NCBI GenBank assembly: GCA_019828545.1
Contig: JACVRA010000171.1
Span: 124,001-188,000, forward strand
DNA from: Paracamarosporium sp. OC-R06-R3
Taxonomy: Eukaryota; Ascomycota; Dothideomycetes; Pleosporales; Didymosphaeriaceae
Direction of reading: 5' to 3'
Length of the DNA: 64,000 bases
Below the pieces are notes generated by a model. That model saw nothing but the letters and a program-made list of their open reading frames with translations, was not told the DNA's origin and did not search any database. Below are positions 19,935 to 43,790 of this stretch, piece by piece. The stretch's first letter is position 1, and each line of letters starts with the position of its first letter. Made by a program: the position numbers and the translations under genes.

Positions 19935-20834
19935 ATGAAGACCACAAGCCTTCTCTCCCTTTTCGCTGCACCTTTAGCTGCACTCTCTTTCACCACTCGA
20001 AACGAAACTAACACCACAAGCCCCATCACAGTCACCAAAGTGAATCCCTCCTACTGGCGCGCAACCTTTTCAGAACCACCATTCAACATCCAAACCAACG
20101 CCTGGTACTCCGCCTTGGCTACCCTAATCTCTGACCTCGCCGCCGACCCCGCCGTCAAAGTCGTCGTTTTCGACTCCAGTGCCCCAGACTTCTACATCGC
20201 CCACTTCGACCTGCTCAATCCCGTAAGCACAGAACTCATCGACAGCTACTGGCCAAACATGACTCGCCTTGCCCATCTGCCTGTGTTGAGCATCGCCGCC
20301 GTACGAGGCATCGCGCACGGAGGCGGTGCCGAGTTTGCTGCCGCGCTGGACATTCAATTCGCCAGCAAAGAGAAGGCTGTTTTCGGGCAGATGGAAATCG
20401 GCATTGGAGCGCTTCCTGGCGGCGGAGGCATCTCTCTCCTTCCACGTCTCGTTGGGCGAAGCCGCGCGCTCGAGATTATCATTGGGGCGCAGGACTTCGA
20501 TGCCGATACTGCTGCGGCGTATGGTTGGATTAACCGCGCGATCCCTGATGCCGAGTTTGAAGGCTTCGTTGATGCGTTTGCGAGCCGCGTGGCTAGGTTC
20601 GATAAAACTGCGATTGTGGAGGTGAAACGTATCATCAATGAGAGAGCTGGATATCCGACGGTGGAGGAACAGGCTGAGGATTGGACGGCTTCTTTGAGGC
20701 TGTTGAGCGCGCCGAATCCGCAGGCGAGGGTGGCGAAACTGGTAGAGTTGGGATTGCAGAGGGACGCTGACTTGGAGGTGAGCATCGCGGATAGGGTGAT
20801 GGACGTGCAGGGAGATGGACCGTGGGATGTTTGA
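19935..20834 (+). CDS. Crotonase-fold (enoyl-CoA hydratase/isomerase-like) protein with signal peptide
   Basis: A 299-aa single-exon protein of the enoyl-CoA hydratase/isomerase superfamily. The ATG at 19935 was chosen over 19863 because it opens a good secretion signal, MKTTSLLSLFAAPLAALS. The crotonase core follows: AAVRGIAHGGGAEFAAALD (oxyanion-hole loop with E133) and GQMEIGIGALPGGGG (E154), so both glutamates that act in hydratases are kept. Members normally work in mitochondria or peroxisomes on CoA thioesters. An N-terminal secretory leader is unexpected and no peroxisomal C-terminal tripeptide is seen (the end is PWDV). It may be secretory, vacuolar or act on a non-CoA substrate. Confidence 0.85.
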   Translation: MKTTSLLSLFAAPLAALSFTTRNETNTTSPITVTKVNPSYWRATFSEPPFNIQTNAWYSALATLISDLAADPAVKVVVFDSSAPDFYIAHFDLLNPVSTELIDSYWPNMTRLAHLPVLSIAAVRGIAHGGGAEFAAALDIQFASKEKAVFGQMEIGIGALPGGGGISLLPRLVGRSRALEIIIGAQDFDADTAAAYGWINRAIPDAEFEGFVDAFASRVARFDKTAIVEVKRIINERAGYPTVEEQAEDWTASLRLLSAPNPQARVAKLVELGLQRDADLEVSIADRVMDVQGDGPWDV

Positions 20835-22162
20835 TTGGCTCCATACCTTAAGTTAAGGTACATTGTTGTGATTCCCGGTGTTTGAAGAAAGATACATAGC
20901 ACTGCTATATACAATTTTATCTATTGCATCACTAACATAGCTCTGTCTAGGTATTGCTTTAGGTGCAGTACTGTATGAATAAGATCTAGATACGAATGTG
21001 ACTTCAATCTCAACTATCTAACGATAAGCGTTTTTAAAGTTCAGCGCAGATTTCTTGAATGTTCTCCTCTGTGCATTGATGAACAAATTCAAGGCGAAAA
21101 CAGGCTTCTTGAAAATGCCAAAGTGTTGCTATCTATTTTGTAAAGAGAAGATGTATTTCTCTTAGCATATTCGCCATGAGTACCAGTTTTAACGTCGCTT
21201 CCTTGCTAAAGTTTTGGACTCTTGATTCTAAGGACTGAAGAGAAAACTCTAAACTTTGACAAGACGGTCACCTGTTCGTTCGCGCTCAACGGGACATTCC
21301 TTAGAAAAAAGCTACTCAGATCTCGAGACATAATACATATCACCTCTGCGGCTACAGTACCTGCAGAAAGCGGGTAATAAGCTGGCCTGGTCACTAGATT
21401 GGTTGCAAGGAGGTACATGTAGCCGGGAGAAGGGTCTGCTGAACGGAAACCACCCTTTAGTCATCATAAATTCTAGGGTTAGTAAGTTAGATTTATGTAA
21501 TCCATAAGCTTACGCAAAGATGTAACAGTTGAATGCTCTGGTCACGTGGGTTGAAACTGAACACTGCGTGTTTAGTCCTGGTCGATGAACAGCGCTCTCG
21601 AATGATGTATCTATATGGTGCAGCCGCATTCTGGCTACAAACAACCATCGATGCGCTTGAAAGCGGAGCAAAATTCCTAGCAAGCTGCTTCCTCTCGCAT
21701 TGTCCTACTCCAAAGGTGAGCGGTGACGTCACATAATGCCATGTACTACAGTCTACTCTTTCCGCCCCCAACCTAATCCAACGAAACACATCCGATCACC
21801 AGAAAGCTACAGTTTGAACCGCAGCAAGATCGACATGGCGCCTTCCTTCTCCTGTCGAGGTATGCACGATGCTGCAATCAGGGCGTCGTCTGCGAAGGAT
21901 GATTTGACATGCTATTTGACCGACCATGAAAGCCAACAAGGGCGGAAGTGCGATGACGGCACTTGCCAATTTGAACAGAAGTGCGGCAATTTTTGGCTAT
22001 CGTGCCTGCTTAAGAGCTCAAACGCGACCTGCCCAGGCGCATTCACCTAAGACTTAGTAACGCTTGTCCGCCGCCAACGCTATATCCTATACCAGACGCC
22101 TACCATCTTTTGAAAATCCTACCTTTGTGTCCTTTGCCCTATATAAAACAAAGTGTAACGCA
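20835..22162. other. AT-rich intergenic region
   Basis: About 1.3 kb, clearly AT-rich from 20860 to 21550. A 71-residue Cys-containing open frame (21835-22050) is present but has no signal peptide or recognisable family. A TATATAAA box lies at 22139-22146, immediately before the small Cys-rich gene. Confidence 0.45.
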
Positions 22163-22450
22163 ATGGGCCTCTACTCCCAATCCCAGTCTTACGACCCGAA
22201 CGCTTACCGGCCGAACCCTCCGCCACAAGCATACTTTCAACCCGAGACCAAGAAGGCGGCAGTATTGCCATACCCTTCACAGACTGTAACTCAACAGCCA
22301 AGACTAGTCGATTCACCAGCATATAAACCACAAGCCATGGGTACTAGGCCCAATAAGAAGCCCAAAAAGAATGAGGGACAAAAGAGGTTGACATGCTGCG
22401 AGGGCTGCTGTGAATGTTGCTTGGGGATAAGTTCATGTTGCAGCTCGTGA
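22163..22450 (+). CDS. Small protein with Cys-Cys-rich C-terminus
   Basis: A 95-aa candidate. It starts MGLYSQSQ, is rich in Pro, Gln, Tyr and Ser through residue 70, has a basic hinge (NKKPKKNEGQKR), and ends in CCEGCCECCLGISSCC, eight cysteines within 16 residues. This layout (polar Pro/Gln/Tyr-rich N-part, Cys-pair-rich C-end) recalls small stress-related CYSTM-type proteins, in which cysteine pairs sit in or at a membrane and may be palmitoylated. A metal-binding role is another option. The Gly at position 2 might be acylated, but the myristoylation consensus is not met. The start could be the in-frame codon upstream. Confidence 0.55.
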   Translation: MGLYSQSQSYDPNAYRPNPPPQAYFQPETKKAAVLPYPSQTVTQQPRLVDSPAYKPQAMGTRPNKKPKKNEGQKRLTCCEGCCECCLGISSCCSS

Positions 22451-22867
22451 AAAGTTAGTGGAATGCAAGGTCGTTACTTAGTATAGTGCAAGAATATATA
22501 CTGATAGTAAACAGGCAAGCATCGGGATCATTCTTGAGGACATCACGACTCGCAACGACCTCATGATCTTCATATACCTATTTGTGGGATTATTTGTACT
22601 CTATCGGTATTTTCTATCTACTTTAGCGTAGCATTCCGACTGATTGGGATGGTTTTTCTTAGCTTTCCAAAGTGGGTAGCGATGTCCCGTCCTTTAATTG
22701 GTGGACGGCGAAATTAGCACTAGCAACCCCTCTAATGATATGTTCCTATACTTAAGACCGACCGGCTGATCGACGTATTTGTCCGAAACAACGATGATAA
22801 TAAAAATAGGCAGCATGTCCTTCAATGCCTACATTGCAAGCCTTGCATGCAATCGTGCCCTCTCAGC
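22451..22867. other. intergenic, promoter of GH43 gene
   Basis: Promoter region with AT-rich stretches; no CGGA-Nx-TCCG repeat of the kind found at 25.8-34 kb was seen. Confidence 0.45.
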
Positions 22868-24452
22868 ATGCTTTCCACATTTTTGTCTGTTTTACTCTAT
22901 GCTGCGGCCAACGTCGGCGTTCTGGCAGCAACAAACTTCCAGTCCACAGGAAACCCAATCCTCGCTGATGGCTCCTACTACTCGGCAGATCCAGCACCAC
23001 TTGTCGTGAACGATACATTGTATATACTAGCAGGACGAGATCAGGCCGCCGCAAATCAGAATAACTTTGTTATTAACGAATGGGAACTCCTTAGCACTAC
23101 TTCAGCAACACCAGCAGGCGGCGCGTGGACACTTTATCCGACTATCGCAACGCCTCAAAGCATTTTCAAGTGGGCTGCTGCTGGCACGGCATATGCGGCA
23201 CAAATCGTCAAAGGTGCTAACGGGAAGTTCTATCTCTATGCTCCGGTTACGGAGGCGAAATCCAGCAACGCAGATAAATTCGCAATCGGGGTATGCACCG
23301 ACATTTGATCCAATAGGTCGACGTTCACTAACTCTTATGGTTTGCTGTACGTAGGTCGCAGTGGCAAGCAGCCCTTTAGGACCTTTCACGGATGCGCACC
23401 CTGCAGGACCCATCCTCTCACAGTCAATCCCTTCACCTGGGAATAACATTCAGAACATCGATCCAACCGTACTGGTTGATGATGATGGCAAGGTGTACAT
23501 ATACTACGGTACTTTTGGTGCACTACGTGGCTACCAACTATCGAGCGATATGGCCACTACAGTTGGTTCTGTCACCACCGTGACCAGCTTAACAGGTTTT
23601 TTTGAGGCACCCTGGATAATGAAACGTTCTGGCACATACTACATGCTATACGCTGCCAACAATGCTGGCGCAAACTCGCCCTGCACTCCTACATCATATC
23701 ATGCGTGCATCGCATATGGCACGGCTTCCTCTCCTCTCGGACCCTGGACGTTCCGCGGCGTAATCCTGGACATCGTCTCTTCAACCACATCTCATCCTGG
23801 TGCAGTTGAATACAAGGGGAAATGGTATCTCGTATATCATACAGCCGACGCGGCCAACGGTGGCCACTTCCGCCGAAGCGTCGCTTGGGATGAGCTCACC
23901 TTCGATACGCAATCTCCTCCGCGTATCAACAAGGTTGCCCAAACCCATCGAGCCCAATCAAACCCTGCACCGACGCGCAACATTGCCCCGAAAGCAAAAG
24001 CAAGCTCCGTGAATGCGACACCCATCCAATATTGGGTTGAGTCTTTGCACGATGGCAAGATCCCTTCAAACCCGCTGCCACCAGACTATTGGTGCTCGTA
24101 TAACGGTAATGCGTCCCCCAAAACGAGTACTCTTGTTTACACGTGGAGCTCTTCGGTCGCATTGAATGGCGTACGTATGGCTTTCTTCGCTGACCAACCG
24201 GCGGGGTCGAATATTGGAGTGCCTCCACCCGCGAGCTGGAAGGTCGAATATCTGAACTCTGCGGGACAATGGACTGCGGTGGCGAACTCCAATGCGTATC
24301 CAGTGGCGGTTACAGATAACCCTGCGGAGGTCAAGTTTACACAGATCACCACTACCTCGATCCGCGCGGTATTAACTGCATCTGGAAGTGGCAATCAGTT
24401 TGGGGGCGTGGGCGTGAAGGAATGGGAGGCGCTTGCTCCGACTGCTTCTTAG
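22868..24452 (+). CDS. Secreted GH43-type arabinan/xylan hydrolase with C-terminal beta-sandwich
   Basis: Extracellular glycosidase acting on plant hemicellulose or arabinan side chains. Exons 22868-23290 and 23355-24452 (64-nt intron) give 506 aa. The signal peptide is MLSTFLSVLLYAAANVGVLA. The five-bladed GH43 core is shown by YYSADPAPLVV (general base D41), NIDPTVLVDDDGKVYIYYG (pKa-tuning D177) and GFFEAPWIMKR (general acid E225), with HPGAVEYKGKWYLVYH later. After about residue 370 a separate domain (NIAPKAKASSVNAT to the end) looks like a galactose-binding or F5/8-type beta-sandwich, possibly sugar binding. Alternative ATG at 22847 would only lengthen the leader. Exact specificity (arabinofuranosidase or xylosidase) is not visible. 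Confidence 0.87.
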
Positions 24453-26176
24453 ATCGTGAAAAGTCATTCGTCAGCGGATTACATGATTGTCTTTCGCAAG
24501 CCATGTGTTGATGTGCACAACTATGACCTTTTCCCACATGAATGCCTGCATAACCTCAAAATTCATAATTTCAGAGGAGATCTTTTCGTGTGCAAGGCTC
24601 ACTCACTCAATCTTATCATTTTCAAAAAGATTTCACTAAGGGTAACACACTATGAATCTTACTTTTATGTGAGACAGCGAGACATCGTGCTCAGAGGAAC
24701 AGTTCATGTAAGGAATCGGGTTATGATGCATGCTTGCGCTCAAATCAGCTTTGAGCATGTCCAAGAATTCGCGCATCAATCAACTCTCCTAGGTCCCAAT
24801 GCTTCCAGGGTCTAAATGCGCACCATGTGGGAAAGATAACCTGCTTTTGTTTGGTTTCTGCTTGTTTAACGGCAATTTCTTCAAGTAGATTGTCCGATAT
24901 CTAGTTTGACGTGTTCATAGTCTGAACTCTTAGTATCATCACCTAAGGATGCTAGCTTCGCGGAATTGCGGTCAAAGGTTGCCACCCGAGCCATACATCA
25001 AGCTACAGGAGTCCAGACCTTGATAGAAGCATGCACCTACGCAGTGTGACCATCGGAATCGTAAGGCTTTCAATGCCACCAAGTGGGTATTCGGAAAGCT
25101 CCGGATTCTCCGTTGACTATGCACGTTTAAAATTCACGTTACGCAAACTTCTTTCATCGGGATGATGCACGACTGCGTGCGGCCTAGGAACTACCGGTAA
25201 GTGACAACCTACGGTAGTTTCGGATGTATTGAAAAGATACATGCACAACTAATTTGATGTACGCAGTAACATCGAAATATTTAAACATTTGTGAAAACAA
25301 GTGGTTTATATTGCAAAGAGCCCAGCAAGACTCCGTCGGAAGCTCGTGCCCACTCGCTGGTTCATGGAATGGCTGAGTTATCCAAGGGCCATCCACAGGT
25401 AGCAAGACCGAAGACTTAGAAAGAGGCAGTTACCGACTCCCTAACAGAATGCTATGTTCCGTAAAATCAATTTAGTAAGCCATTCTGACACATATCCATG
25501 CGCAGTTCGACGTGGCCTTGCATATTGGGGGATTCGTCATTTAGGAACTCGCCTCGTATGTGGCCATTAATTTGGGATGAGGTCAAGTCCAACCTAATCG
25601 AATCCCTCAACAAATTTCAACCGTTAGCATATTCCACTCACATTACGATATATATATTCATGATATCCACTACTGTCTTGATCTCCTGTCGTTATGGATT
25701 GACTTCTTCACTTGGATGTGGGGCCGGATAAAAAGGACCGGGTAGCAAGAAGCTCTAAAAAAGGTGGACCGCAAATTTAAGCCCATTCATAGGGGTAATT
25801 CTCATCGACCCGTGCAATATCAGACACGGGCGTTAGAACAATTCCTGGTTCTGACTTGGCCTTCGACCTCGGTTACGGAATGCAATCCGAATGCCTTCGG
25901 AAAACACCCGAAGCCAGTCATCCTCATGCGCTCCACACTTGCACGCGCCAACCCCAGGAATATTCTCCACAACCAGAACAGTGGAAAGCTGGGGACCCAC
26001 GTGAACATGCAAGAGGGCCTAGTGCGTTTGTGCAGACCTGGGGCTTTTCCCAGCATCTAGAACTGCACGCCACCTATTCGACCAAAAGCATAAGAAGACG
26101 CGACACCGTCAAGTCGTCCATCACCCCTGTTCTCTTCGTTCAACTTTTATACCCTTGACTTCATCTGTTAACAACA
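24453..26176. other. 1.7-kb intergenic region upstream of transporter
   Basis: No credible gene. The part 24880-25750 is AT-rich. The last 330 bases form the transporter promoter and contain the CGGA-N6-TCCG repeat listed separately, and a pyrimidine-rich leader just before the ATG. Confidence 0.5.
25876..25889. promoter_or_regulatory. CGGA-N6-TCCG inverted repeat, transporter promoter
   Basis: CGGAATGCAATCCG, about 290 bases upstream of the transporter ATG. Paired CGG triplets in inverted orientation are the usual binding form of Zn2Cys6 dimers. A further CGGA half-site follows at 25898. Confidence 0.5.
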
Positions 26177-27957
26177 ATGGGTCTATTCTCGAGAAAGAAG
26201 GCTGGCGCTGAGCAGGCTGTTGGGCCTGAACTACTTGCGGTTCGTCTCTTATTCTTTTGCTGCCCTTCTCCAGTGCTGACTTTGCAAAGGTACTTCCACA
26301 AAACCCAGCGCCATGGTACCGGACCAAGCATCTTGTCCTACTGTATGCCACGTTATTGGTTCCTGTATTGTCTTCAGCCTCAGTCGGATTTGATGGTTAG
26401 TCGCTTTCAAGCATCATTCACAAGCACCATCTAACTCACTCTGCACAGGCGCGATGATGAACGGTCTACAAACCGTCAAACAATGGCGAGGATATTTTGG
26501 TCATCCAAACGCCTCTATGTTGGGGTTGATGAACGCGATATACCCCGTCGGGAAGGTCCTTGGTCTCTTACCTTGCACATTCCTGGCGGATCGTTTTGGC
26601 AGGAAGGTCCCTTTAACAATTGGACTCGTTGTCTGCATCGTCGGAGCAGCACTTCAAGGGGCTAGCCAAAATGTCGGCATGTTCATCGCTTCTAGGTGCA
26701 TACTGGGTTTCGGCACGTCGTTCTTGGTGCAACCTTCGCCTATTTTGATCACAGAGTTGGCATTCCCGACACATCGAGGAAAGGCTACGGCAACTTATAA
26801 CACCTTCTTCGTACGCATTCCTCCCACTTCTGTATCTTTTTGCTGCTAACATTGGCCAGTATTTCGGTGCAATCCTCGCTGCGTGGTTCACATACGGTAC
26901 GTTTCCAATTAAATCGACGTGGAGTTGGAGGATACCATCGCTGCTACAAGGAGCGTTGCCTGTCGTGCAGCTGGCATTTGTCTGGTTCGTTCCAGAATCA
27001 CCGAGGTGCGTCATTTGAGAAGAAGGATCCTTAAGGCATGTCGCTAAAAAATATTTCAGATGGCTCGTCGCTCATGGCAAGCAGATGGAAGCGCGAAAAA
27101 TCCTCGCCAAATATCACGCCGCCGGTGATGAGAGCTCCCCCCTCGTAGCATACGAACTGCAAGAGATTGAAGAGAATATTCGTCTCGAAACCGAGATCCA
27201 AGGAGAAACTTCATGGCTTGATCTCGTACGGAGTGCGCCAAATCGGAAACGGACCCTCATCGCTGTCATCGTTGGATTCTTTGCGCAATGGAACGGTGCA
27301 GGTGTCGTCTCTTATTACCTTACACTTGTCCTTAACACCATCGGTATCACTGAGACGTCCGATCAAGCTCTCATCAACGGATTGTTACAAATTTTCAATT
27401 GGATAACTGCCGTCGGGGCTGGTGCTATGATGGTAGACCGGGCTGGCCGACGACCTCTGTTTCTTACATCGGTCGCAGGCATGGCAGCTTCGTATGCTAT
27501 TTGGACCGCTCTCACAAGTACCTTCATCAAGTCTCACGATGCGGACGCCGGACGGGCTGTAGTGGCCTTTATATTCATCTATTACTTCTTCTACAACATC
27601 GCATGGTCGCCTCTGCTTCTGGCGTATCCCGTCGAGATCTTCCCATACTCGCTACGAGGCAAAGGTGTCTCGGTGTCTCTCTCATGTACCTTTATTGGAC
27701 TTATTATCGGACAGTTCGTCAACCCCATCGCCATGACTGCCATCGGATGGAGATACTACATCGTCTTCTGTGGTATTCTAGGTGCTCTCTTCTGGGTCAT
27801 CTACTTCCTATTCCCAGAAACTAAGGGCAGGACACTGGAACAGATTGCCGAGGTTTTCGATGGACAGAATCATAAAGCGGGAATGACAGAGGTGGGATTG
27901 GAGGAGATCAACGAGAGCGAGAAGATGGAGCATGTGCGGGTGGAACAGAAGGTATAG
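26177..27957 (+). CDS. MFS sugar/glycoside transporter (sugar porter family)
   Basis: Plasma-membrane proton-linked importer of sugars or glycosides. Five exons, 26177-26239, 26290-26395, 26449-26810, 26860-27005 and 27060-27957, give 524 aa with introns of 49-54 nt. Sugar-porter signatures: GFDGAMMNGL (helix 1, made by joining exons 2 and 3), LADRFGRKVPL, PESPRWL (again made by a join), MVDRAGRRPLFL, and the C-terminal FPETKGRTLEQIAEVFDG. The ending is typical of the lactose-permease-like clade, which takes disaccharides and glycosides as well as hexoses. Its promoter carries the repeat shared with the following five genes, and an intracellular GH3 glucosidase lies 6 kb downstream. Import of an aryl or oligo glycoside is therefore likely. 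Confidence 0.9.
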
Positions 27958-28318
27958 AACTTGGACCAACCGCCTGGTTGCCACCTATCATTCGCAATGG
28001 CACACTAAGTTCTATGTTGCACGTAAGAATACGGTTAAAGCTATCCGTGCGTCTCTTAATATATACACATATATATGATGTTTCTTCACTATCCTACATA
28101 GCAGATGATATGGAGCGTAAATGAGAGCTAATTTTTGTTGCGTTTCAGACCAATGACTTTCTTAACGCTAATGACTCATGCGAGAGTAACTCTCTGTTCT
28201 CGTCGAGTCATGTGTCAACTAGCGTGTATTTCCCCACGCAATCTTCTTCGGATCCCTTCCGACTCCTGCTCCAACTTCCCCGAACTCATCATGCGCCCCG
28301 GATGATTCCTTGCTACCC
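27958..28318. other. intergenic, promoter of Zn2Cys6 gene
   Basis: Promoter between transporter and regulator, both on +. It carries a CGGA-N5-TCCG element 58 bases before the regulator's ATG. Confidence 0.5.
28249..28261. promoter_or_regulatory. CGGA-N5-TCCG inverted repeat, regulator's own promoter
   Basis: CGGATCCCTTCCG lies close to the ATG at 28319. This position fits autoregulation by the Zn2Cys6 protein it precedes. Confidence 0.45.
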
Positions 28319-30776
28319 ATGCCGAACGACCATCACCCGGGCGAGCGGCCTGCTAAGCGGCCTAAGACGCGACTTGCATGCAAAGAGTGCCGTGAGCGAA
28401 AAATCCGCTGTGACGGAGCCAGACCCGTTTGCGATTCCTGCACCAAGAAGAAGCTCGATCCAGGACAGTGCACTTATGCGGATAGTGCGGAGTCAAATGC
28501 TCAATACGTCCAGGAGCTGGAGAGGAGAATAAGAGATCTAGAAGCGTCTCGCTTTCAAAATGGACGATCCAATAGTTTTGATGCATTCCCACCTCATCGT
28601 GGAGAAGTAATGACTGCATCGGGCGTCTCGCCCTCTGCTCCGTTCTACAACCCAAATGTTATGACAGATGAAAATGACATCAGAGGCCGGAGAAATCCTT
28701 CTACTGATATTCGTCGAATTGATCCGCAATTGGTTCAGCTCGACAACCAGTCAACGATGCATCTGGACCAATCCCTCCCGTTTGACCAGTCCGGCGAATA
28801 TCCTTCAACCTCAAGACACCATTTTGAGTCAAGCGCCGCTCAAAACCCGATAGTCATGAACCCGGTTCAACCTGGCGAAGAGTCCAACGATGCAAACCTT
28901 CCAACAGCATCAACTATGGGAGCGACTGAGGAGACTCCATCCGACGGCGGAAGAGTAATTTTTCTTGGAAGGTCGAGTGCCGCTGCGTTTATGAAAGAAG
29001 TCAGTCAAGCAAACTCCAAAAGGCGCGCAGTCTCGGAAACGGGCGCACCACTAAGCCCTACCATGTCTAGAGCATCGCAAAGTCGTTCGAAGAAGGAAAA
29101 GGAACAACTTCAGATACTCATGGAAAACATTGTTCTTCCTCCGAGAAGAGTAGCAGATATGTTTCTTGGGCACTATTGGGAGCATGTGCATCCTCTAATG
29201 CCAATATTTCACAAACCAAGCTTTATGCTGAAGTATGAGCGCGTATGGCACGGCGAAATGACCGGATCTCGTATAGGCGATACCGAAGAGTCTATTCACA
29301 CGATACGTGCATTCTACGCAACTTTCAATGCTGTTTTGGCATTGGGTTGTACCTTCTCGCCTGATACTGGACAGAAGGCTAGAAACAAAGCAGAAACTTT
29401 CTTTCAACGTTCGCAGGAGCTCCTCGTCGCCGATAGCTATAATCACGGCTGTATGGGCTTAGTCCAAGCTCTCATACTCGGAGCTCAATACCTCCAAAGT
29501 TCTGATTATATCAATCGTTGTTGGGTGACGATTGGCTCCTCGATCCGTGTCGCGCAGGGAATTGGCATTCAGTTAGATTTACCAACAGAAAGCCAAGCAG
29601 AACGAGAAGAGCGTAGGCGGACGTGGTGGTGCTGTGTGCTGATGGATCGAGTTCACAGCATGACGTTTGGCCGGCCTCCAATGGTTGTCTGGCCTTCTGT
29701 AGTACCGTATCCTTCGATCGCCAATGACGAGGATCTAAGTATGGAGTCTGGAAGCTCATCGCAACAAGTATTACCGCAGGATAAAGCCATCTCTGCTGCG
29801 TTTGTGAATACCCTCAAGCTCTCCGAGATCTTGATGGAAGTTTTGAAGATTTTCTATGGTCCTCCTATGGCAGATCAGATGCCCCTTCTCGAACAATTTA
29901 CCAATGTACAAATGATAGACCATCGCCTAGGACGATGGCGAGACGAACTTCCCAACTTTCTTCAATGGAAAACAGGCTATGTCAGCGAGGAGCAGCTGGT
30001 ATATATACGTCAGGCCATTACACTACGATGTAGATTTTTGCACCTGCAAATTCTATCATTCCGTCCTACGACTGTATCACTTGCACGCTCGCGTGCTTTG
30101 CAGACAACTACAAGCAATGAGAGAACAGTGTTTCAACAAAGCATGTCTCAGGGATGTGTTAACTCCTGCATAAGCGCAGCACAAGAACTTATCAATATCA
30201 TCAATTTAGAAAAGGATAAGGGAACCCTGCCACCCTGGTGGTATAGCGTTTTCTGTAAGTACCTTGAGTGTACATTTCCAGATATTTGGTTGACTTTTAC
30301 TACAGACCTTTATTCCGCGGGCACAGTGATACTGGCTACCATACTTACACCAACACTCCGAACATCCAGCGACAAAGAACCCGACTCACTTGAGAACTCA
30401 TGGCAAATGTGCCTGCAATGTCTATGTGACATGCGAAAGAGCGACTGCACATTTGCAAACCGTTGTTTGTTGATGCTAAGGTCCGCAAGAGACCAATTCG
30501 TTCGTGATGCAACAGGTAATCTTTCCCTTGACAAATAACAATCATATACTATAGGCAGTGCAAAGCTAACTCAAAATAGAGGGCCATAGTATTCCAGATG
30601 CTCTTCCACGGAATACCACCCTATCTGCTGACATTGACACGCGTCAGTCATCACTTGCTGACATTTCTCATGTATACGAAGGCATGTTCAACGAGGATGT
30701 CTTTGTAGATCATTGGTGGCCGATGAATGGCCTAGATTGGTTAAATAGTCTCCCAATCGATGCAGCTGCCCTATAA
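28319..30776 (+). CDS. Zn2Cys6 transcription factor, probable regulator of the gentisate/glycoside cluster
   Basis: Nuclear binuclear-cluster regulator with a fungal_trans middle domain. I read three exons, 28319-30254, 30306-30515 and 30580-30776, 780 aa. The DNA-binding part is RLACKECRERKIRCDG...CDSCTKKKLDPGQC near residues 20-52, followed by a short coiled coil (YVQELERRIRDLE). The fungal_trans domain runs from about 260 to 560 (HYWEHVHPLMPIFHKPSF, RRRTWWCCVLMDR, FGRPPMV). The 51-nt intron at 30255-30305 has no stop and keeps frame, so it is easily missed. Removing it restores SVFYLYSAGTVIL, the form usual in this family. The upstream ATG-less extension begins with TTG and is not used. 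It sits between the transporter and the catabolic genes. Confidence 0.85.
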
Positions 30777-30804
30777 ATGCATCCACCACCATCTTCATAA
30801 CCCA

Positions 30805-31860
30805 TTATTCTTTACGATACATTCCCAAATTTCTCAAAAGCGGCGAATCGTTTACTGCAAAGAGGTAGCTAAGCTCTGATGCCATGTGTACTCTTTCTGT
30901 CCATGCTGGTACCGCGAAAGTATCACCTTTGCTCCATTCCACCGTTCTGGTCTCGCCATTTGCCAATTTCAATTCGCTCTTACCTAAACCTTCAAAACAA
31001 TGGTAAACAAAGGAACAACTTTCGCGTATCGGAGGAGACTGGGTCGTGGCATCGATTCGCTCGGCTTGACCGCCCATCGTGAGGGACAGTGCACCCCCAG
31101 AAGGTGATCGGTAGTTGTAAATTGCGTGTGATCCTGAGTGAGCGTCGAGTTCCTTTTGTACCTCTTCCCATCCAATCTGAAGGTCTTTAGCAGATTCTAC
31201 TTCCCTGTACTAGAGTCAGTCATCAATAAATCACAGTTTTAGTGTGTACCCACTCGCTTGGATATCTGTCTTCGTTGTACAATTCGGCGAAGTTCGTTGG
31301 GAAAGCTTGGTATAGAGGTAAATCTAGTCCATCGAGCCATATCATGGGTCCATTTCCTGTTTCGATCAGCAATTGGACACTTAGGTTGGAATTACCTTCT
31401 ACACACCTTCGTGGCCGTGGTCGTGCCACTGCCAACTGGGTGTCAAAATCACGTCTCCACGTCGCATTATGACCTTTCTGCCACCCACAGCTGTGAACCC
31501 TCTCTCGCCTTCCACGATAAATCTCAGCGCAAATGCCGTGTGTCGATGCGCAGGCGCGGTCTCTCCAGGCAAAATCAGCTGCAAACCAGCATAGATTGTA
31601 TCAGTGGTGTACGGTGCACGCATGTTGGGGTTGACAAGCATAAGCACTCGGCGTTCCGCTTCATCAGCGGCCACTAATCGACCAGCTTCTAGGAGCAATG
31701 GCCGGATCTCGTTGTATTTCCATGCCGCGACGGTGGCTTTAGGATTTGGTGCAGGCGGCACCATTGCGGACATGACTGTCCATAACGGCGCAACATCTTT
31801 GGAAGGGAGTGTGGAGAGGTAGGCGGCGGTTTCTTTGGATTGCGTTTTGTGAGGAGACAT
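30805..31860 (-). CDS. Gentisate 1,2-dioxygenase (bicupin)
   Basis: Iron enzyme that opens the ring of gentisate (2,5-dihydroxybenzoate) with O2 to give maleylpyruvate. Exons on - are 31860-31407, 31356-31254 and 31204-30805; the product has 318 aa, close to the family's usual 340. The N-terminal cupin carries the iron ligands in [15 protein letters not shown] (H105, H107) and [10 protein letters not shown] (H146, H148); the latter is completed by the first intron join. [20 protein letters not shown] is typical of this family. The second cupin ([30 protein letters not shown]) lacks the full His set, as is normal. The second intron may alternatively start at GTACAC, changing two or three residues. 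Its tail ends 28 bases from the regulator's 3' end. Confidence 0.88.
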
Positions 31861-32194
31861 GCTGAAAGCGCTGAATAATTTGAGCAAATATAGAAGTAGA
31901 GGTCTTTACGAATCTTGGTCCTCGTGGATGTAATCCTGCAGTTACAACTTGCGTGTTGAATACAACAACATAACTTAGAGCTCAACGAAACCCCGCATTC
32001 TCCATTCGATCGTCTCTCCACCTGCTCCACACTGTGGTTCCCTGCACTTCGGCATACGGAGCGCTGCCGAACCATCATGCGCCAGTGCTGGGTTGCTAAC
32101 ACCGCCCACCGGAGGACTCCGGAACTCTGTCCTGAATGCACCGCGTCCAAATCTGCATAGCTCCTCGGATGTCTTCCGAGTATTATCATCCAGT
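31861..32194. other. intergenic, promoter of gentisate dioxygenase
   Basis: Promoter of the dioxygenase and 3' flank of the GFA gene. It contains the CGGA-N4-TCCG element listed separately. Confidence 0.5.
32110..32121. promoter_or_regulatory. CGGA-N4-TCCG inverted repeat, dioxygenase promoter
   Basis: The arms extend to CCGGAG-GA-CTCCGG at 32109-32122, a near-perfect 14-base palindrome, 250 bases upstream of the dioxygenase ATG. Confidence 0.5.
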
Positions 32195-32696
32195 TTAGGT
32201 CGCACACATTGGCTTGAAAAGCTCAACCGTGGGCTTGAATTTATTGAGCCTAGCAATGCTACTACTTAGCGTGTCACCTTGAATGGGATGTTTTGCGGAT
32301 AAGATTGTCACTCACCCGTTTTCGACTAAAGCGATCCGTACCATTCGGATCTTGCCTTTGTACTTCAAAGGCGCGGTCCAGAGCGTGCATCCGCACTGGC
32401 CGCAAAAATGTTTCTCCTTTGGAAAACCACTGGCTGTCCCTTCGCTGATAGTATAGACCTTGAGAAGACTCTTTGAATCTTGCAATTTGACATCTTCGGT
32501 TGGAAAGGATGCCATCTGGAAGAGAATCAGCTTAAAACGATCATACAAGCGTAGAGTAGCGTACGACTTGATACGGTGCCCCGGAATTCTTGACGCAATC
32601 GGTGCAATAACATGAAAGGATCTTGGTCGGTTCAACATGCAGTGAGAAGGAAATACCACCGCAAAGACAGCTTCCGTGAGCCACCCTAAACACCAT
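32195..32696 (-). CDS. GFA-domain (CENP-V/GFA) zinc protein
   Basis: A 128-aa protein of the glutathione-dependent formaldehyde-activating (GFA) fold. Exons on - are 32696-32565, 32515-32316 and 32249-32195, introns 49 and 66 nt. No single open frame shows the gene whole. Zinc ligands are all present: GSCLCGGISF (C10, C12), SCYCTDCVKNSGAP (C29, C31, C34) and HFCGQCGCTLW (C82, C85, C87). The family binds zinc and, in some members, glutathione. The gene lies between the gentisate dioxygenase and an FAH hydrolase and shares their promoter motif. The pathway needs a maleylpyruvate isomerase, which is glutathione-dependent in many organisms, and none of the usual GST-type is here. That role for GFA is my inference. 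Confidence 0.82.
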
Positions 32697-32813
32697 GGTG
32701 TGGGAGAAGGTAAAAGAAATGGGTTCTGCGCAAGGCGTTGGTCACAGCCCGTAAACTGCTGAGTGTAGACAGCAAGGACCGGCTTATATGTTGAATAGCG
32801 TACATCTACTAGG

Positions 32814-32826
32814 CGGATGCGGTCCG
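32814..32826. promoter_or_regulatory. CGGA-N5-TCCG inverted repeat, GFA gene promoter
   Basis: CGGATGCGGTCCG lies 118 bases upstream of the GFA start. It begins CGGATG and ends TCCG like the FAH/GH3 element at 33951, with CGG inserted. Confidence 0.5.
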
Positions 32827-32896
32827 AAAGCATCTATCGCACAGTGCTTCTAGAGATATGTAACAGCTCGTTATACATTCTTCATCTATCTATTCT

Positions 32897-33787
32897 TCAG
32901 GGTTGCACCTGATCTTTCGCAAATACCATCTTATTCCGAATCTTCCCTAACCCACCAATTTCAATTTCAACAACATCACCATCCCTGAGATATTTTGGCT
33001 GCGCCATTCCCATCGCCACGCCCGCTGGCGTACCCGTCATAATCACACTCCCAGCCTCTAGGGTGGTTCCTTGACTTGCAAACCGCACAATTTCCTTAAC
33101 ACCAAAGAGCAGATCGCTTGTGTCGCTATCCTGCCGCAGCTCTCCGTTCACCCAGGTTTTCAAACTCTGCTTGTCTGCTAACCCTAATATCTTAGGACTG
33201 ACAATCATCGGACCAACAGGGCACCAGCCGTCGAATCCTTTTGCGAAGCACCACTGCGGTACACCACCGGCGAATGCAGGATCGCGCTGCCACTTGCGTG
33301 CACTGACGTCGTTTCCAGACGTATATCCTAGAATGTAGTCCTCGACTTGATCAGCCGGAATGTTTGACCCAGTCTTGCCAATGATAATGCACATCTCTCC
33401 TTCGTAATCTAATTCGTCGGTTGGATGTACGATCGTAGGGACGACAACATCGGCGTTCCATGATGCGATTGTAGGTGAGCCTTTGATGAAGATTGACGGA
33501 TATGGTGGAGGCTTCCGACCGCCTTCTTGGATATGTTTTTGGTAGTTGAGGCCGATGCATCGTACTATTGGAACATCTGAGGGCGAGAGTGGACCGGTGA
33601 TTTCTTTGACTGAAAGCTCCTGGCCAGTCGGCTTGAGAGAGGTAATGTTTGATCCGGTGAGCTCACGAGCCTTGAGTTGGTCGCTAGCGAGGAGAGTCTC
33701 TAGCTCTGAAGGCGCTGATATGATTGGGTCTCCATAATGGAGATTTCCGTCTTCGCCTTTGAACTGGATGAGTCGATCCCAAGACAT
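32897..33787 (-). CDS. FAH-family hydrolase, probable fumarylpyruvate (acylpyruvate) hydrolase
   Basis: Cytosolic or mitochondrial metal-dependent C-C hydrolase of the fumarylacetoacetase superfamily. I chose the ATG at 33787 (MSWDRLIQFKGEDG), giving 296 aa, which matches family length and the usual MSW-RLIRF-type start; the open frame reaches ATG codons at 33850/33856. Family motifs: RCIGLNYQKHIQE (active-site loop), metal ligands in LDYEGEMCIIIG (two Glu) and GYTSGNDVSARKWQ (Asp), and GSVIMTGTPAGVAMG near the end. In gentisate breakdown this enzyme splits fumarylpyruvate to fumarate and pyruvate (or maleylpyruvate directly to maleate). The neighbouring dioxygenase makes that the best guess. 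It is divergent from the GH3 gene. Confidence 0.88.
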   Translation of the reverse strand: MSWDRLIQFKGEDGNLHYGDPIISAPSELETLLASDQLKARELTGSNITSLKPTGQELSVKEITGPLSPSDVPIVRCIGLNYQKHIQEGGRKPPPYPSIFIKGSPTIASWNADVVVPTIVHPTDELDYEGEMCIIIGKTGSNIPADQVEDYILGYTSGNDVSARKWQRDPAFAGGVPQWCFAKGFDGWCPVGPMIVSPKILGLADKQSLKTWVNGELRQDSDTSDLLFGVKEIVRFASQGTTLEAGSVIMTGTPAGVAMGMAQPKYLRDGDVVEIEIGGLGKIRNKMVFAKDQVQP

Positions 33788-34129
33788 ATTTGTTAGCTCG
33801 GAGGCTGTAAGACGAATACGAGAATTGAGGTAAAGAATATTTCCCGACATTATCACTCCTACTCTTTTGTATACTTTCCGATGAAGGCGCTTTCGGAACC
33901 GGCTTGGAACGATTATCTAGACAAGCCATGATGGTTGAAGGTTGACGAATCGGATGTCCGCTTGAGACAACTGGAACGTTTCCGATTCGTCACTCTGCTC
34001 CCCGAACTCCCCACACACGATCATGTGCACATACAAGCATTCACCCGTCGCGTGGGGATATCGTTGCCATATTAAATCGATTACGCACAAGAAGTCTATC
34101 AATCACAACTTTTCGTGTTCCCGTAAACT
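33788..34129. promoter_or_regulatory. Divergent promoter of FAH hydrolase and GH3 glucosidase
   Basis: 342 bases between two divergent starts. It holds two paired-CGG elements, listed separately, plus another CGGAACCGG at 33894-33902, so joint control of both genes is likely. Confidence 0.6.
33944..33991. promoter_or_regulatory. 11-bp perfect inverted repeat with inner CGGA-N2-TCCG
   Basis: GACGAATCGGA at 33944-33954 and its exact reverse complement TCCGATTCGTC at 33981-33991 are separated by 26 bases. The left arm's CGGA also pairs with TCCG at 33957-33960 to form CGGATGTCCG. It sits mid-way between the two start codons. Confidence 0.6.
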
Positions 34130-36739
34130 ATGGGGGACTATACTACTGCAGCGTTTGATCTCGACAACCTCGTTGCGCAGCTCACTTTAGATGAGAAGAT
34201 CGCGCTCCTCTCTGGTATGCCATCTTTCCTTATTGATATCCAAAAATTGAGGTCTGATAAATGCAGGCAAGAACTTTTGGCATACTCGCGACATTCCTAG
34301 ACTGAACATACCTGCGCTTCGCCTGACGGACGGCCCAAATGGACCACGAGGCACTAAGTTTTTCAATGGCGTGCGAGCAGCATGCCTCCCATGCGGAACA
34401 GCTCTAGGTGCAACATGGGATGAACCACTTCTCCAGCAGGCAGGCGAGTTAATGGGTCGCGAAACGATCGCTAAGGGTGCACATGTTCTGCTAGGCCCAA
34501 CGGTGAACATTCAACGATCTCCTCTGGGCGGCCGAGGCTTTGAAAGCTTTAGCGAGGATCCAGTACTCAGCGGACAAATCGCCGCTGCAGTCATCAAGGG
34601 AATCCAAGGGACGGGGGTTTCGGCGTGCATCAAGCACTTCGTGTGCAATGATATGGAGCACGAACGTCAAGCTGTGAACTGCGTAGTCTCGGAACGTGCG
34701 CTGAGAGAGATCTACCTAGCGCCTTTTGCGATTGCGATACGTGAAGCACGACCTTGGGCGCTTATGTCATCATATAACAAGATAAATGGATTACACGTCA
34801 GTGAGAACAAAAGATTACTTACGGACGTGTTGAGAGATGAATGGGGGTTCGATGGCTTCATCATGAGTGATTGGTAGGTTATTTTAAGGTGACTTTCGGA
34901 GCATTCCTAATTATTTGTAGGTTCGGCGTCTACTCGGCTGCAGAATCAGTACAGGCTGGTTTAGACTGCGAGATGCCAGGTCCGCCGAGATTGCGTGGAC
35001 CCAACATCACAGTCTCGCTCGGGAGCCGTAGAGTGACGGAATACGACGTTGACAATCGGGTTCGGAACTTGCTCAAGCTCATCAAGCGAACAGAACCTCT
35101 GAACATTCCGACAGATGCGGAAGAGAAGGAGCTGAATGCACCGGAAACACCAGATTTTGCTCGCAAACTGGCGTCATCAGGGATTGTGTTGTTGAAGAAC
35201 GAACGTCAGATCCTGCCACTAGATCGCACTAAAACTATTGCTGTCATGGGTCCAAACGCAAAGTTCGCTGCGTACTCTGGAGGAGGCTCCGCTAATCTAA
35301 AGCCATATTATGCAGTCACCCCCTTCGAGGGCATATCGTCGGCTGCTAAAGATGTCCGGTACACATTGGGCGCGCACGCATATAAGCAACTTCCCCTCCT
35401 ATCTAATTTGACAAAAACTCACGATGGAAGAAGAGGTCTGACAGCAAAATTCTATAACGAGCCTCCCGAAGTAGTAGAGCGAACACACAAAGATGAAATC
35501 TTCGTCGACGCTTCTGACATGTTCTTGGCGGACTATGCGCATCCAGATGTTAGCCCTGAGCTCTTCTACATCGATCTCGAAGGTACACTCTCGCCTGACG
35601 TCTCGGGCGAGTATTTATTTGGATGCTCGGTGCGCGGAACTGCACAGATTTTCGTTGATGGAGAGCTCATTGTGGACAATGCCACGATGCAGACCCTTGG
35701 TGGAACGTTCATGGGAGCTGGAACTCGCGAGGAAAGGGCCTCAAAATACTTAGAGCAGGGCAGGACATACAAGGTCCTGCTACAGTTTGGTTCTGGCCTG
35801 ACGCAGACGGTAAGGAAGAAGGGTGCCACAGCTATGCGAGGTGGTGGAGTACGGGTGGGTGCTACATTGAAGACAGACCCACAGCAAGAGATTCAGAAGG
35901 CGGTTGAGTTGGCAAAAGAAGTCAATCAAGTCATCATCTGTGTAGGTTTAAGTGGAGATTGGGAATCTGAGGGTTTTGACCGACCAGACATGGATCTCCC
36001 AGGTCATACTAACGCTCTGGTATCGGCAGTAGCCAAAGCCAACCCCAATACTGTCGTGGTAAACCAATCTGGAACTCCAGTAACCATGCCTTGGATACAT
36101 GAAGTGCCGGCACTGATTCAAGCTTGGTTCGGTGGCATCGAAACCGGCAACGCAATTGCAGATGTTTTGTTTGGCGACATCAATCCCAGCGGCAAGCTAC
36201 CGCTTAGCTTTCCAATTCGCAACGAAGACAACCCTGCCTTTCTGAACCAGAGAAGCGAGAGGGGAAGAATGCTGTACGGGGAAGATATCTACGTAGGATA
36301 CCGGTTCTACGAAAAAACAAAGAAGGAAGTCTTGTTTCCCTTTGGGCACGGCCTGTCGTACACAAACTTTGCAATAGAGAACTTGCAAGTTGATGCGACA
36401 GAAGACACAATAAATGTCACTATCGACTTGGAGAATACTGGAGAAAGAGATGGTGCTGAAGTCGTTCAAGTATACGTCAGTCAGCAAGCAGCAACTGTGA
36501 CCAGACCAGAGAAGGAACTCAAGGGCTTCAAGAAGGTTTTCTTGAAGAACGGAGAGAAATCACAAGTTGGTATAAAGCTAAACAAAAAGCTTGCAACAAG
36601 CCATTGGGATGAGGAAAGGGATAGATGGGTATCAGAGGAAGGAACATACGATGTTTTGGTGGGAACCAATAGCGATCAGGTCGCTTCAAGCAGCTCTTTC
36701 CGTATTAAGAGGACAATATGGTGGAAGGGACTACATTGA
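34130..36739 (+). CDS. GH3 beta-glucosidase with PA14 domain, no secretion signal
   Basis: Retaining glycosidase that removes non-reducing beta-linked glucose (or xylose) from oligo- and aryl glycosides. Exons 34130-34214, 34267-34873 and 34921-36739 give 836 aa. Domain order: GH3 barrel from residue 10 ([33 protein letters not shown]), nucleophile D230 in FIMSDWFGVYS, which spans the second intron; second GH3 domain from about 320 ([25 protein letters not shown]), interrupted by a PA14 insert at about 400-560 ([27 protein letters not shown]); and a C-terminal Fn3-like domain. The N-terminus starts [12 protein letters not shown] with no leader, so the enzyme is cytosolic. That requires its substrate to be imported, as the nearby transporter would allow. 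It shares a divergent promoter with the FAH gene. Confidence 0.92.
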
Positions 36740-37523: not shown

Positions 37524-39183
37524 ATGAATCTCCTCTCTAGCTTGCTTTGCTTAGCATCTTGGTTGCTAGTTACAACCGTGCATGCGGATGAAACCTTCCG
37601 CAGCCGCCCTGACCTCTCTCCACCTCATCTTAATATCACCATTCTGAGTAAAAGCGAGATCTCTCCTGGCTATCTCTTCGCAGCTCCTTATTCCGGCTCT
37701 TCTGACCTCTCCCACCACTACTCCGTCCAGAAAGCGCCATACATCCTCACCAACACAGGTGACCTCGTCTGGTCTGGATTCGGCTACATCTTTCAATGGG
37801 CTGGTAATTTTCAAGCTACGCGATGGAAAGGCAAGGACGTGCTGTTTGCCTGGGAAGGTGCACTTAATGCCTTGCATGGCCATGGCCATGGCCACCATAC
37901 GTTTTTGGACCAGCATTATCGCAATGTGAAGGAAGTGAGAGGAGGTAATCGCCTGATCCCAGATTTACATGAGTTTGAGGTGGTGAATGAGAGCAGTGCA
38001 TTGCAGGAAATATATCAGCCATTGCAGATAGACTTATCACCGTTTGGTGGTAACAAGCAACAGACGTGGATTGTGGAAGGGCGATTTCAAGGTTGGTTCA
38101 TTTGCTTCCCGTATTTTAACAAGCTAAGACAATACAGAGGTCGATATTGGAACCGGTGAAGTTCTCTTTGAGTGGCGCAGCCTCGACCATGTGTCGCCCA
38201 AGGACGCAATCTTATCTTTAGAATCAGGGACCGCTGGTTCCGGGTATAACAGTGGCTCATCATGGGATTACCTGCATATCAATTCTGTAACAAAAGGAAA
38301 AGACGGGCACTATCTGTTGTCTGCGCGGCATACTTCGACGATCTACAAGATTAACGGTACCGATGGGTCGATCATCTGGCGTTTGGGGGGCAAATCATCC
38401 GACTTCGAACTTGGTCTCAACGTAGAGTTCGGCTTCCAACACCATGCACGCTACCTTAACGAGGATCCATACTTTGTAGAGGTCATCTCCTTGTTCGATA
38501 ATTCTGCTCACAGCTCCGATCTGGCATCTGTTTCGTCAAACACCAACACCCTTTCACGAGGAATATACATTAAAGTGGACCACAGCACTAAGAAAGTGAC
38601 ACTCGAACGTGAATTCTTGCCACCGGACAAACCCATATTGGCAAGATCTCAGGGATCTCTTCAAACCTTACCTAACGGTAACGTGCTCGTCAACTGGGGT
38701 TCGGAAGGCCAGATCACAGAATATACACGAGATGGAACATCTGTTTATCATGCCCATTTCGTGAGTAATAAGGTTGAAGACAGCTTGCAAAACTATCGTG
38801 CGTTCCGCTTCAACTGGACAGGACATTCTCCAGAGCCTATCGCGGTTTTCGCAGAGGAAGTGGAAGGAAGTGAGGTCGATGTGTACGTCAGCTGGAACGG
38901 TGATACCAGAACGAAGTCGTGGAAGTTTACTTGGAGCAAGGGAGACTCCGCCGGTATGACTGAGCATATCAAGGAAGTGCCAAAGACTGGGTTCGAGACA
39001 GCGTTTAGGCTGCCTTCGGGTGGTCCCATACGTGACATACGCGCGGCAGCACTGGATGGTATAGGACAGATGCTATCCGTTTCTGAGAGTATCGATGCTG
39101 TACCTGCATATTGGCTCAAAAATGGAACAACTACATTTCAACATGACGAGAAGAATGGAGACGGTTTCATCCAGGAGCTCTAG
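37524..39183 (+). CDS. Secreted arylsulfotransferase (ASST)-like beta-propeller protein
   Basis: Exons 37524-38091 and 38138-39183 (46-nt intron) give 537 aa. The leader MNLLSSLLCLASWLLVTTVHA is a clear signal peptide. The fold is a beta-propeller of the arylsulfotransferase (ASST) family common in fungi: LTNTGDLVWSGFGY, GEVLFEWRSLDHVSP, DYLHINSVTKGKDGHYLLSARHTSTIYKI, IIWRLGGKSSDF, HHARYL and LPNGNVLVNWGSEGQITEY. Bacterial ASST enzymes move sulfate between phenols, with a catalytic His. Fungal members are uncharacterised and activity is unproven. A His-rich loop (HGHGHGHH, from a GGCCAT repeat) is unusual. The gene follows the GH3 gene, but no cluster-type promoter repeat was found. Confidence 0.85.
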
Positions 39184-42149: not shown

Positions 42150-43790
42150 TGTATCTCATTTGCACCTCGAGCGACTTCTACAGCAAACACTTGCATTGCT
42201 TCTCAATATAAATATGTATAATCTCAGCATGTTTTGTGGTAGATGCCCGGTTTGGGATGGACGCCTTGCTTCTGTGGGGCGGCTCACGTTCTAGCGGGTA
42301 GAGTGGGTCGGGCTTAACCCCAATCCCAATCCCAAACCCTTGGCCCCTCCTTGGCCACGAAATGTTCCCAATCGGGCCGGTCGTAGTTCAAAGTACTGAC
42401 CACTGGCGACGTATAGAAATAGCCAATCGACCCTAAAACAAGGGTAACACGGGATGAACTCCAGATAAGCTCGCGCTTTTTCGACAAATCGGTAGGGTTC
42501 TCATGCTTGTTTAACGTTGTGTCCGGGAAGGATAACGTGATTGCGCTGTTCCCATTGGATCTGAAGTATACAATACGCGATCCTGCTTGTAGGTACTATC
42601 CGATGGCTATGCACATAGCCTACATGTTGAGGATAACAAACATTTGGTTTTCTGGTACAATATCCAGACGTCTCGCTAAACGTATTGAAGCTTGCGAACC
42701 GAAAGTATGGACTACAACCTCGTCCAGTTCAAAGATTCATACTACACTCGCAGTGAACACCGACCACAGGTGAAAAGCTTTGACATTGCTCAGCTGCATT
42801 CGCTAAAACTTCAGACCCATCGTCCTACCGCTCCGACCGCAATTCTAGGGGTGATACACTGCGCCATGTGAGGCGACCCACACAAGAACCACGTAAGCGA
42901 GAAGGATTTCTCATTACACTAGACGCTCCATCTCCATCCAATCGGTATTCAGCGCAGACAAAAGTATCGTTGTACGAACGACTACTGGGAAATGCTATAC
43001 TCTGTGCTTCGGGCGCAGTAGCTCTTGGCCAATGCGAGGTGCGAAAGAGGAATCTGGGCTGAGACACGTAGAAGACACTTGGACCTCATAGCAATGCCGG
43101 CTGAGCTACCCTTGTATTATGAACTCAAGCTGAGCTGAGCTGAAGACTAGGGAGTCGGTCTCTCTATGATGGTGTTATGCAAAGTCGAAAAGCACGCATG
43201 TGCTAACCTGATTCAAATGGCTTTGAAAAAATGCAGTTAGTGCGCCATTCATAAGCACACTTTGGTGTTAGTAAACGACCATGTGCCTGCTTCACATTTT
43301 TTACTCACTGGCAGCAACAGCGTCAAGCGATCTACACACACAAGGTTTGCAATACGTTTCGCATGCATAGACTCCTCATATCACTTGCCTTGAAATAGCT
43401 CCTTTTAATGCTAATGAACATGCATTAACTTCACCACTTTCGCTCTACACCGAGCTTCGAAAATTCCAAGAGAAAAAAAAAAAACTCTAATACGCACACT
43501 ACACCCAGACTACGCACTATACCACACACGTACTTCCTTACATTAATTCACCGACCGTAGGACGCCGTCCATGCTCCGTGAACAGTATGAGCATAGTTAG
43601 AAAAGCGACGATACCAATGCCCCAATCAGCACCGTCGCTATGCAATTTCAGGAACGAACAATGTCAACATTCAGAATAGCAAAGAAGGAAAGAACAAAGG
43701 AGCAAAGTAGAGATGACTGCAGTGTGTATGCAAATAGGTGCAACCCAACTCCTCCTCTTCATTGCACGCCGTTCACCGACACGAGTAACC
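42150..43790. other. 1.6-kb intergenic region
   Basis: Upstream of the Zn2Cys6 gene and downstream of the Atg2 gene. It contains an imperfect CCCAAT repeat near 42316-42340 and an A-run near 43471-43484. No credible gene. Confidence 0.5.

Follow-up and report, generated by a model that had tools for sequence, protein, structure and literature searches.

The subject of this analysis is a cluster of six genes at positions 26177-36739 of a 64,000-nucleotide stretch of contig JACVRA010000171.1 (Paracamarosporium sp. OC-R06-R3), which as a whole is referred to as the window. The cluster joins a core of known type, consisting of a gentisate 1,2-dioxygenase-like protein, a FAH-family hydrolase, a Zn2Cys6 regulator and a sugar-porter-family transporter, to genes for a GH3 beta-glucosidase-like and a GFA-fold protein. 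Together with a hydroxylase gene that was looked for in the 64 kb and not found, these two additions mark it as a plausibly novel form of a cluster type already described. That dioxygenase and hydrolase belong to a core ring-cleavage unit is, judged from their sequences, highly probable. The complete explanation, namely a co-regulated gentisate-type catabolic cluster fed by a phenolic glucoside, is put forward tentatively, as something close to but below an even call.

The gene models given below were built by hand from the sequence alone, and all genome searches refer to the window's own assembly (43.09 Mb, 337 contigs), the sole fungal genome covered. The six genes are as follows:

26177-27957, forward strand: MFS sugar-porter-family transporter, five exons (26177-26239, 26290-26395, 26449-26810, 26860-27005, 27060-27957), 524 residues
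28319-30776, forward strand: Zn2Cys6 fungal-specific transcription factor, two exons (28319-30515, 30580-30776), 797 residues
31860-30805, reverse strand: gentisate 1,2-dioxygenase-like cupin protein, three exons (31860-31407, 31356-31254, 31204-30805), 318 residues
32696-32195, reverse strand: GFA/CENP-V-fold protein, three exons (32696-32565, 32515-32316, 32249-32195), 128 residues
33787-32897, reverse strand: FAH-family hydrolase, probable fumarylpyruvate/acylpyruvate hydrolase, one exon, intronless, 296 residues
34130-36739, forward strand: GH3 beta-glucosidase-like protein with PA14 and Fn3-like domains, three exons (34130-34214, 34267-34873, 34921-36739), 836 residues

All six genes yield full-length proteins in these models, which contain 10 or 11 introns, every one of the form GT...AG and 47-66 base pairs long. 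An earlier note on this DNA had placed six genes of these families in this interval, and splice models, Pfam and NCBIfam confirm that assignment. Transporter, regulator and GH3 gene run forward; dioxygenase, GFA and FAH genes are read in reverse, so that the FAH and GH3 genes are divergent. Hereby, the spacing is compact, with 28 bases separating the ends of the regulator and dioxygenase genes and 342 bases lying between the divergent FAH and GH3 genes. The GFA gene sits between those of the dioxygenase and the hydrolase, on the same strand as both.

The Pfam match of the dioxygenase is Cupin_2, and its best chain in the PDB is 2d40, a 'putative gentisate 1,2-dioxygenase' (E 3.1e-65). In a four-row alignment, made up of the window protein, a second copy from the same genome (contig C7) and, both in part only, the chains 2d40 and 4fag, the residues H105, H107, H146, R71, R113, H148, Q94 and D160 are invariant, and being common to all four rows they do not discriminate between substrates. 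We take H105, H107 and H146 to be the three metal histidines (HxH...H cupin ligands). The hydrolase matches Pfam FAA_hydrolase (PF01557) with 211.8 bits (1.2e-62); its PDB relatives span several reactions, and it is annotated as a probable fumarylpyruvate/acylpyruvate hydrolase. The proposal of the earlier note that the two proteins catalyze consecutive steps of the gentisate pathway is thus supported by family membership.

A search of the genome with the window dioxygenase returned only one other locus, situated on contig C7 and comprising the following features:

G000 contig C7, 28788-33285 (L024:788-5285): second gentisate-type locus with FAD (flavin adenine dinucleotide) monooxygenase, dioxygenase and FAH genes, situated between a P450 gene and an aldo-keto reductase gene

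The C7 dioxygenase shows 49.3% identity to the window copy over 306 aligned residues, with differing positions of the modelled introns. Directly downstream of it lies a FAH gene whose product is 47.1% identical to the window hydrolase over 289 residues, and the two hydrolases are reciprocal best matches among the eight FAH stretches compared. Both dioxygenases of the genome therefore adjoin a FAH gene or stand one gene away from it, and this same-genome comparison provides the best evidence for the core unit. The C7 monooxygenase, a partial frame, has 3-hydroxybenzoate 6-monooxygenase as its best NCBIfam match, below the cut-off. As a whole, the C7 locus fits the published fungal 'gentisate-like' clusters that have no isomerase gene.

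A core of this type has been described before. In A. fumigatus, mfsG (an MFS sugar transporter), ctfG (a C6 regulator), gdoG (the gentisate dioxygenase) and fphG (a fumarylpyruvate hydrolase) are clustered (Greene et al. 2014, PMC3914699), and among 23 such GC clusters in Ascomycota fphG, ctfG, gdoG and sahG are fully conserved and the MFS sugar transporter is variable (PMC3914699). The window likewise clusters genes of the gdoG, fphG and C6-regulator types with a sugar transporter, a likeness at the level of families and not of orthology. Unlike the GC cluster, it has additional GH3 and GFA genes. A counterpart of the fully conserved sahG, an FAD hydroxylase, was not detected: as a tblastn query, part of the C7 FAD monooxygenase retrieved its own locus on C7 and nothing from the 64 kb (E<=1). 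A further difference from the GC cluster is that a scan of 30 proteins or frames of the window revealed neither an aldehyde dehydrogenase nor a stilbene dioxygenase. Since the defining gene sahG was not found, we did not file the cluster as a GC member; its core is nonetheless GC-like.

Fungal 'gentisate-like' clusters without a maleylpyruvate isomerase gene have been reported as well, and a genome may hold two gentisate clusters (PMC7842363, PMC13094099). As in these clusters, the dioxygenase of the window is paired with a hydrolase while no MaiA-type isomerase gene was found beside them. It differs from the A. terreus cluster, which has an FAD monooxygenase (PMC7842363), in that none was found in the window; the passages available on these clusters (PMC7842363, PMC13094099) mention neither GH3 nor GFA. 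A gentisic acid cluster of Scedosporium responds to both lignin and gentisic acid with induction, its MFS gene being the exception on gentisic acid, and contains MFS, dioxygenase, FAH and Zn2Cys6 genes as in the window, from which it differs by a P450 and a monooxygenase (PMC8283699). The word 'glucosidase' does not occur in the texts of PMC3914699, PMC8283699 and PMC7842363 and occurs once, for an unrelated tannase, in PMC13094099; 'formaldehyde' does not occur in the text of PMC3914699. The literature covered, in which subscription journals are mostly not included, yielded no gentisate cluster of a fungus that contains a glucosidase or GFA gene. The novelty suggested in the earlier note was overstated for transporter, regulator, dioxygenase and hydrolase, which correspond to the published GC cluster (PMC3914699).

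The regulator carries the Pfam domains Zn_clus and Fungal_trans. Zn2Cys6 proteins generally use CGG half-sites. To compare the promoters, five upstream regions with together 1814 bases were considered, which hold the following elements:

25898-25910: CGG-N7-CCG site upstream of the transporter gene
28249-28261: CGG-N7-CCG site upstream of the regulator gene
32057-32069: CGG-N7-CCG site upstream of the dioxygenase gene
32166-32178: CGG-N7-CCG site upstream of the dioxygenase gene
32814-32826: CGG-N7-CCG site upstream of the GFA gene
25908-25931, forward strand: CCGAA...CATGCGC element upstream of the transporter gene
28280-28296, forward strand: CCGAACTCATCATGCGC element shortly before the start codon of the regulator gene
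32067-32082, forward strand: CCGAACCATCATGCGC element upstream of the dioxygenase gene
34002-34028, forward strand: CCGAAC...CATGTGC element between the divergent FAH and GH3 genes

The five CGG-N7-CCG inverted repeats, distributed over four of the five promoters, compare with 0.28 expected from the density in the window. When any of 75 combinations of spacing and orientation is allowed, 2 of 1000 dinucleotide shuffles give an equal result, and so do 16 of 1000 sets of random segments drawn from elsewhere in the window irrespective of coding status; this second figure is the weaker but also the fairer one. The second element, CCGAA and then CATGYGC, is present in all promoters except that of the GFA gene and only once elsewhere in the 64 kb. 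Two pairs of 5-base words, this one and one other, are found in four of the five promoters, compared to a mean of 0.015 and with none of 200 shuffles reaching two. Matches to the stricter pattern CCGAACN0-20CATGYGC number 61 genome-wide, and three of these fall within 5.75 kb at the cluster. While the total of CGG/CCG in the promoters is not enriched (52 vs 45 expected, P 0.16), the half-sites TCGGA/TCCGA (12 vs 3.06) and TTCGG/CCGAA (10 vs 3.15) are; the C7 promoters likewise carry TTCGG/CCGAA (4 vs 1.58 expected). Taken together, the shared elements suggest that the cluster is probably co-regulated, as support obtained in silico and not as proof; the earlier note had mentioned promoters without giving detail.

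The 17-mer CCGAACTCATCATGCGC has one other copy in the genome, on contig C60; as this copy falls within a 336-residue open frame, it was rejected as a regulatory site and taken as chance. At C11 and C262, two of the other 57 matches of CCGAACN0-20CATGYGC outside the cluster, no aromatic-catabolism gene was recognised by eye in the lists of open reading frames; the list for C262 contains an MFS protein.

The transporter matches Pfam Sugar_tr (316.7 bits, 3.5e-94) and the sugar porter model TIGR00879 (268.9 bits, above the cut-off of 237.8), and its best PDB chain is 'Sugar transport protein 10'. By model cut-off it is a sugar porter, a class assignment from which the substrate cannot be read. 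For the GH3 protein, Pfam reports GH3_N, GH3_C, PA14 and Fn3-like domains; all eight NCBIfam matches stay below their own cut-offs. In the PDB, its closest chain is 3abz (E 1.4e-265), titled 'Beta-glucosidase I', which we take to be the K. marxianus enzyme and which aligns end to end over residues 8-835. Since the N-terminus is not strongly hydrophobic, the protein is probably cytosolic; the intracellular location asserted by the earlier note can be retained in this weaker form, as judged from N-terminal hydropathy. The GH3-PA14-Fn3 architecture is common to the window protein, K. marxianus BglI and Streptomyces BcpE2, the last being bacterial and likened by description only. BcpE2 cleaves aryl-glucosides, its substrates including salicin and arbutin as well as further glucosides from plants (PMC9426481). 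In plants, most of the stored gentisate is bound to sugar, as glucosides and xylosides (PMC9706870).

These observations are consistent with a pathway in which the cupin dioxygenase would cleave the aromatic ring of its substrate, gentisate or a closely related 2,5-dihydroxybenzoate, and the FAH protein would hydrolyze the resulting acylpyruvate, giving pyruvate plus fumarate (or maleate), both steps being suggested by strong homology. The Zn2Cys6 protein would control the block via CGG-N7-CCG-like sites. On a weaker basis, the sugar-porter MFS protein may bring in a phenolic glucoside, from which the GH3 glucosidase may free the aglycone inside the cell, so that no hydroxylase would be needed in the cluster. 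Maleylpyruvate isomerisation may be spontaneous or be carried out by a MaiA homologue encoded elsewhere. A glycoside feed of this kind, by import and cytosolic release, is possible, although we would rather bet against it. A preformed gentisate glycoside would explain why no hydroxylase was found in the window, and a beta-glucosidase in place of the hydroxylase of other clusters points to a testable role, the use of ready-made gentisate glycosides. The most specific version, a self-contained regulon which imports plant gentisate glucoside or xyloside, releases the sugar intracellularly, cleaves the ring and dispenses with the GC hydroxylase, is rather unlikely on present evidence. If it were true, it would suggest a role for gentisate-like clusters, whose function has been called unclear (PMC13094099), in the use of gentisate glycosides; gentisate, a defence compound derived from salicylate, occurs in plants mainly in this bound form (PMC9706870).

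Several observations weigh against a glycoside-fed, co-regulated cluster. In the genome, 52 exon-level matches belong to the GH3 family and 34 to the GFA family, and because both families are this large, either gene may be a chance neighbour. At the C7 locus (30 kb) no GH3, GFA, MFS or regulator homologue was found, and the C7 promoters contain neither CGG-N7-CCG nor CCGAA...CATGYGC. A bacterial survey, covering the best 80 of at least 507 confirmed dioxygenase relatives with flanks of up to 5 kb (some contigs being shorter), yielded FAH neighbours at 37, C7-like hydroxylases at 16, MaiA-type proteins at 10, MFS proteins at 3, GFA proteins at 2 and GH3 proteins at none of these 80 loci; the FAH count speaks for the core unit, the GFA and GH3 counts against the two additions. 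The GFA count stayed at two after two profile rounds following the single-sequence search, with a profile that never exceeded three sequences. With regard to the promoters, both motifs were picked post hoc from these same promoters, and their genome-wide counts lie near those of reversed controls (61 vs 59 and 226 vs 211). CGG-N7-CCG has a window total of 10, of which two fall inside the coding parts of the FAH and GH3 genes. Moreover, the GFA promoter has no CCGAA...CATGYGC and the FAH/GH3 promoter no CGG-N7-CCG. Finally, the dioxygenase reaches 270.7 bits with the NCBIfam model TIGR02272 (gentisate_1_2), under the cut-off of 442.1 of a model that serves bacterial and archaeal annotation; the C7 copy is also under it (266.9 bits).

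The family sizes and the scarcity of GH3 and GFA at the C7 and bacterial loci also speak for a rival explanation, an ordinary four-gene gentisate or gentisate-like core with GH3 and GFA as unrelated neighbours and a hydroxylase elsewhere, for instance on C7. Transporter, regulator, dioxygenase and hydrolase match part of the published GC set, and of the two added genes GFA is backed by the N7 site only and the GH3 side by the looser element only. However, the 342-base gap between the GH3 and FAH genes bears CCGAAC...CATGTGC together with 5 of the 12 TCGGA/TCCGA half-sites, and the position of the GFA gene between its two neighbours, on their strand, fits poorly with an unrelated insertion. This explanation is a serious contender, which we hold to be somewhat doubtful.

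An alternative concerning the substrate is that the cluster acts on another ring-hydroxylated acid from plant glucosides, e.g. salicylate or a substituted salicylate, and is a gentisate-like cluster as in Aspergillus terreus. On salicylate, expression of the A. terreus cluster rose late and to a small extent only (PMC7842363), a relaxed specificity has been suggested for fungal gdoG (PMC3914699), and the role of such clusters is called unclear (PMC13094099); the second NCBIfam match of the window dioxygenase is 5-aminosalicylate dioxygenase (170.5 bits). Its best family and best PDB chain are, however, gentisate dioxygenases, and the invariant residues lend this alternative no help as they do not discriminate. 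Another substrate appears improbable.

The GFA protein matches Pfam GFA with 83.5 bits (1.5e-23; profile positions 2-112 of 115), its last exon being the least certain, and reaches 21.8 bits with the model of glutathione-dependent Gfa (TIGR02820), far under the cut-off of 234.55. It belongs to the wide Pfam GFA family, outside the glutathione-dependent Gfa equivalog. Its cysteines form three groups (10, 12, 29, 31, 34, 82, 85, 87, 126), and an accessory zinc/thiol enzyme is the most likely assignment. A tblastn search of the 64 kb with the MaiA of the genome, which would miss a non-homologous isomerase, gave no hit (E<=1); one MaiA homologue over the cut-off is encoded elsewhere in the genome. 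A role of the GFA protein as the maleylpyruvate isomerase of this cluster, in which a zinc/thiol enzyme would stand in for the usual glutathione-dependent one, would agree with its place between dioxygenase and hydrolase, its own CGG-N7-CCG site, the lack of a MaiA match in the window and the fungal gentisate-like pathways reported without isomerase (PMC13094099), yet is very improbable given its distance from glutathione-dependent Gfa, its rarity at the surveyed bacterial loci, the MaiA encoded elsewhere and an isomerisation that may be spontaneous, as assumed in PMC3914699. If it were true, the GFA protein would be a candidate for the isomerase step that has no gene in gentisate-like clusters. 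On contig C205 (L029:5311-6552), another GFA-family gene adjoins a GST-family gene, possibly as a thiol-chemistry pair; as a link between GFA and the isomerase step this pair was rejected, the GST being under the MaiA cut-off with general GST domains only.

Among the bacterial dioxygenases, two single-frame proteins from metagenome-assembled genomes of Candidatus Eremiobacterota from bogs (L032:5001-5876, L033:5001-5876) are 52-53% identical to the window protein, compared to 34-40% for the remaining 78 of the 80 surveyed. In an 82-row tree they group with the two fungal copies (100/99), a join that long branches leave unsure; gene transfer between fungus and bacterium would be a possible cause.

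Outside the cluster, the upstream neighbour on the forward strand is a GH43 gene (frames 22847-23308, without a Pfam match, and 23361-24452). With a GH16 frame at 17072-17917 on the reverse strand, the upstream region 17072-24452 thus holds further carbohydrate enzymes near the cluster. Downstream of the GH3 gene follows an arylsulfotransferase-family (PF14269) gene, phenol-related by its family name, at 37524-39183 on the forward strand (frames 37524-38159 and 38191-39183). Upstream of the GH43 and arylsulfotransferase genes no copy of the promoter elements of the cluster was found. Further downstream, a long open frame at 43664-50257 on the reverse strand matches the autophagy protein ATG2 (PF13329, 1307 bits).

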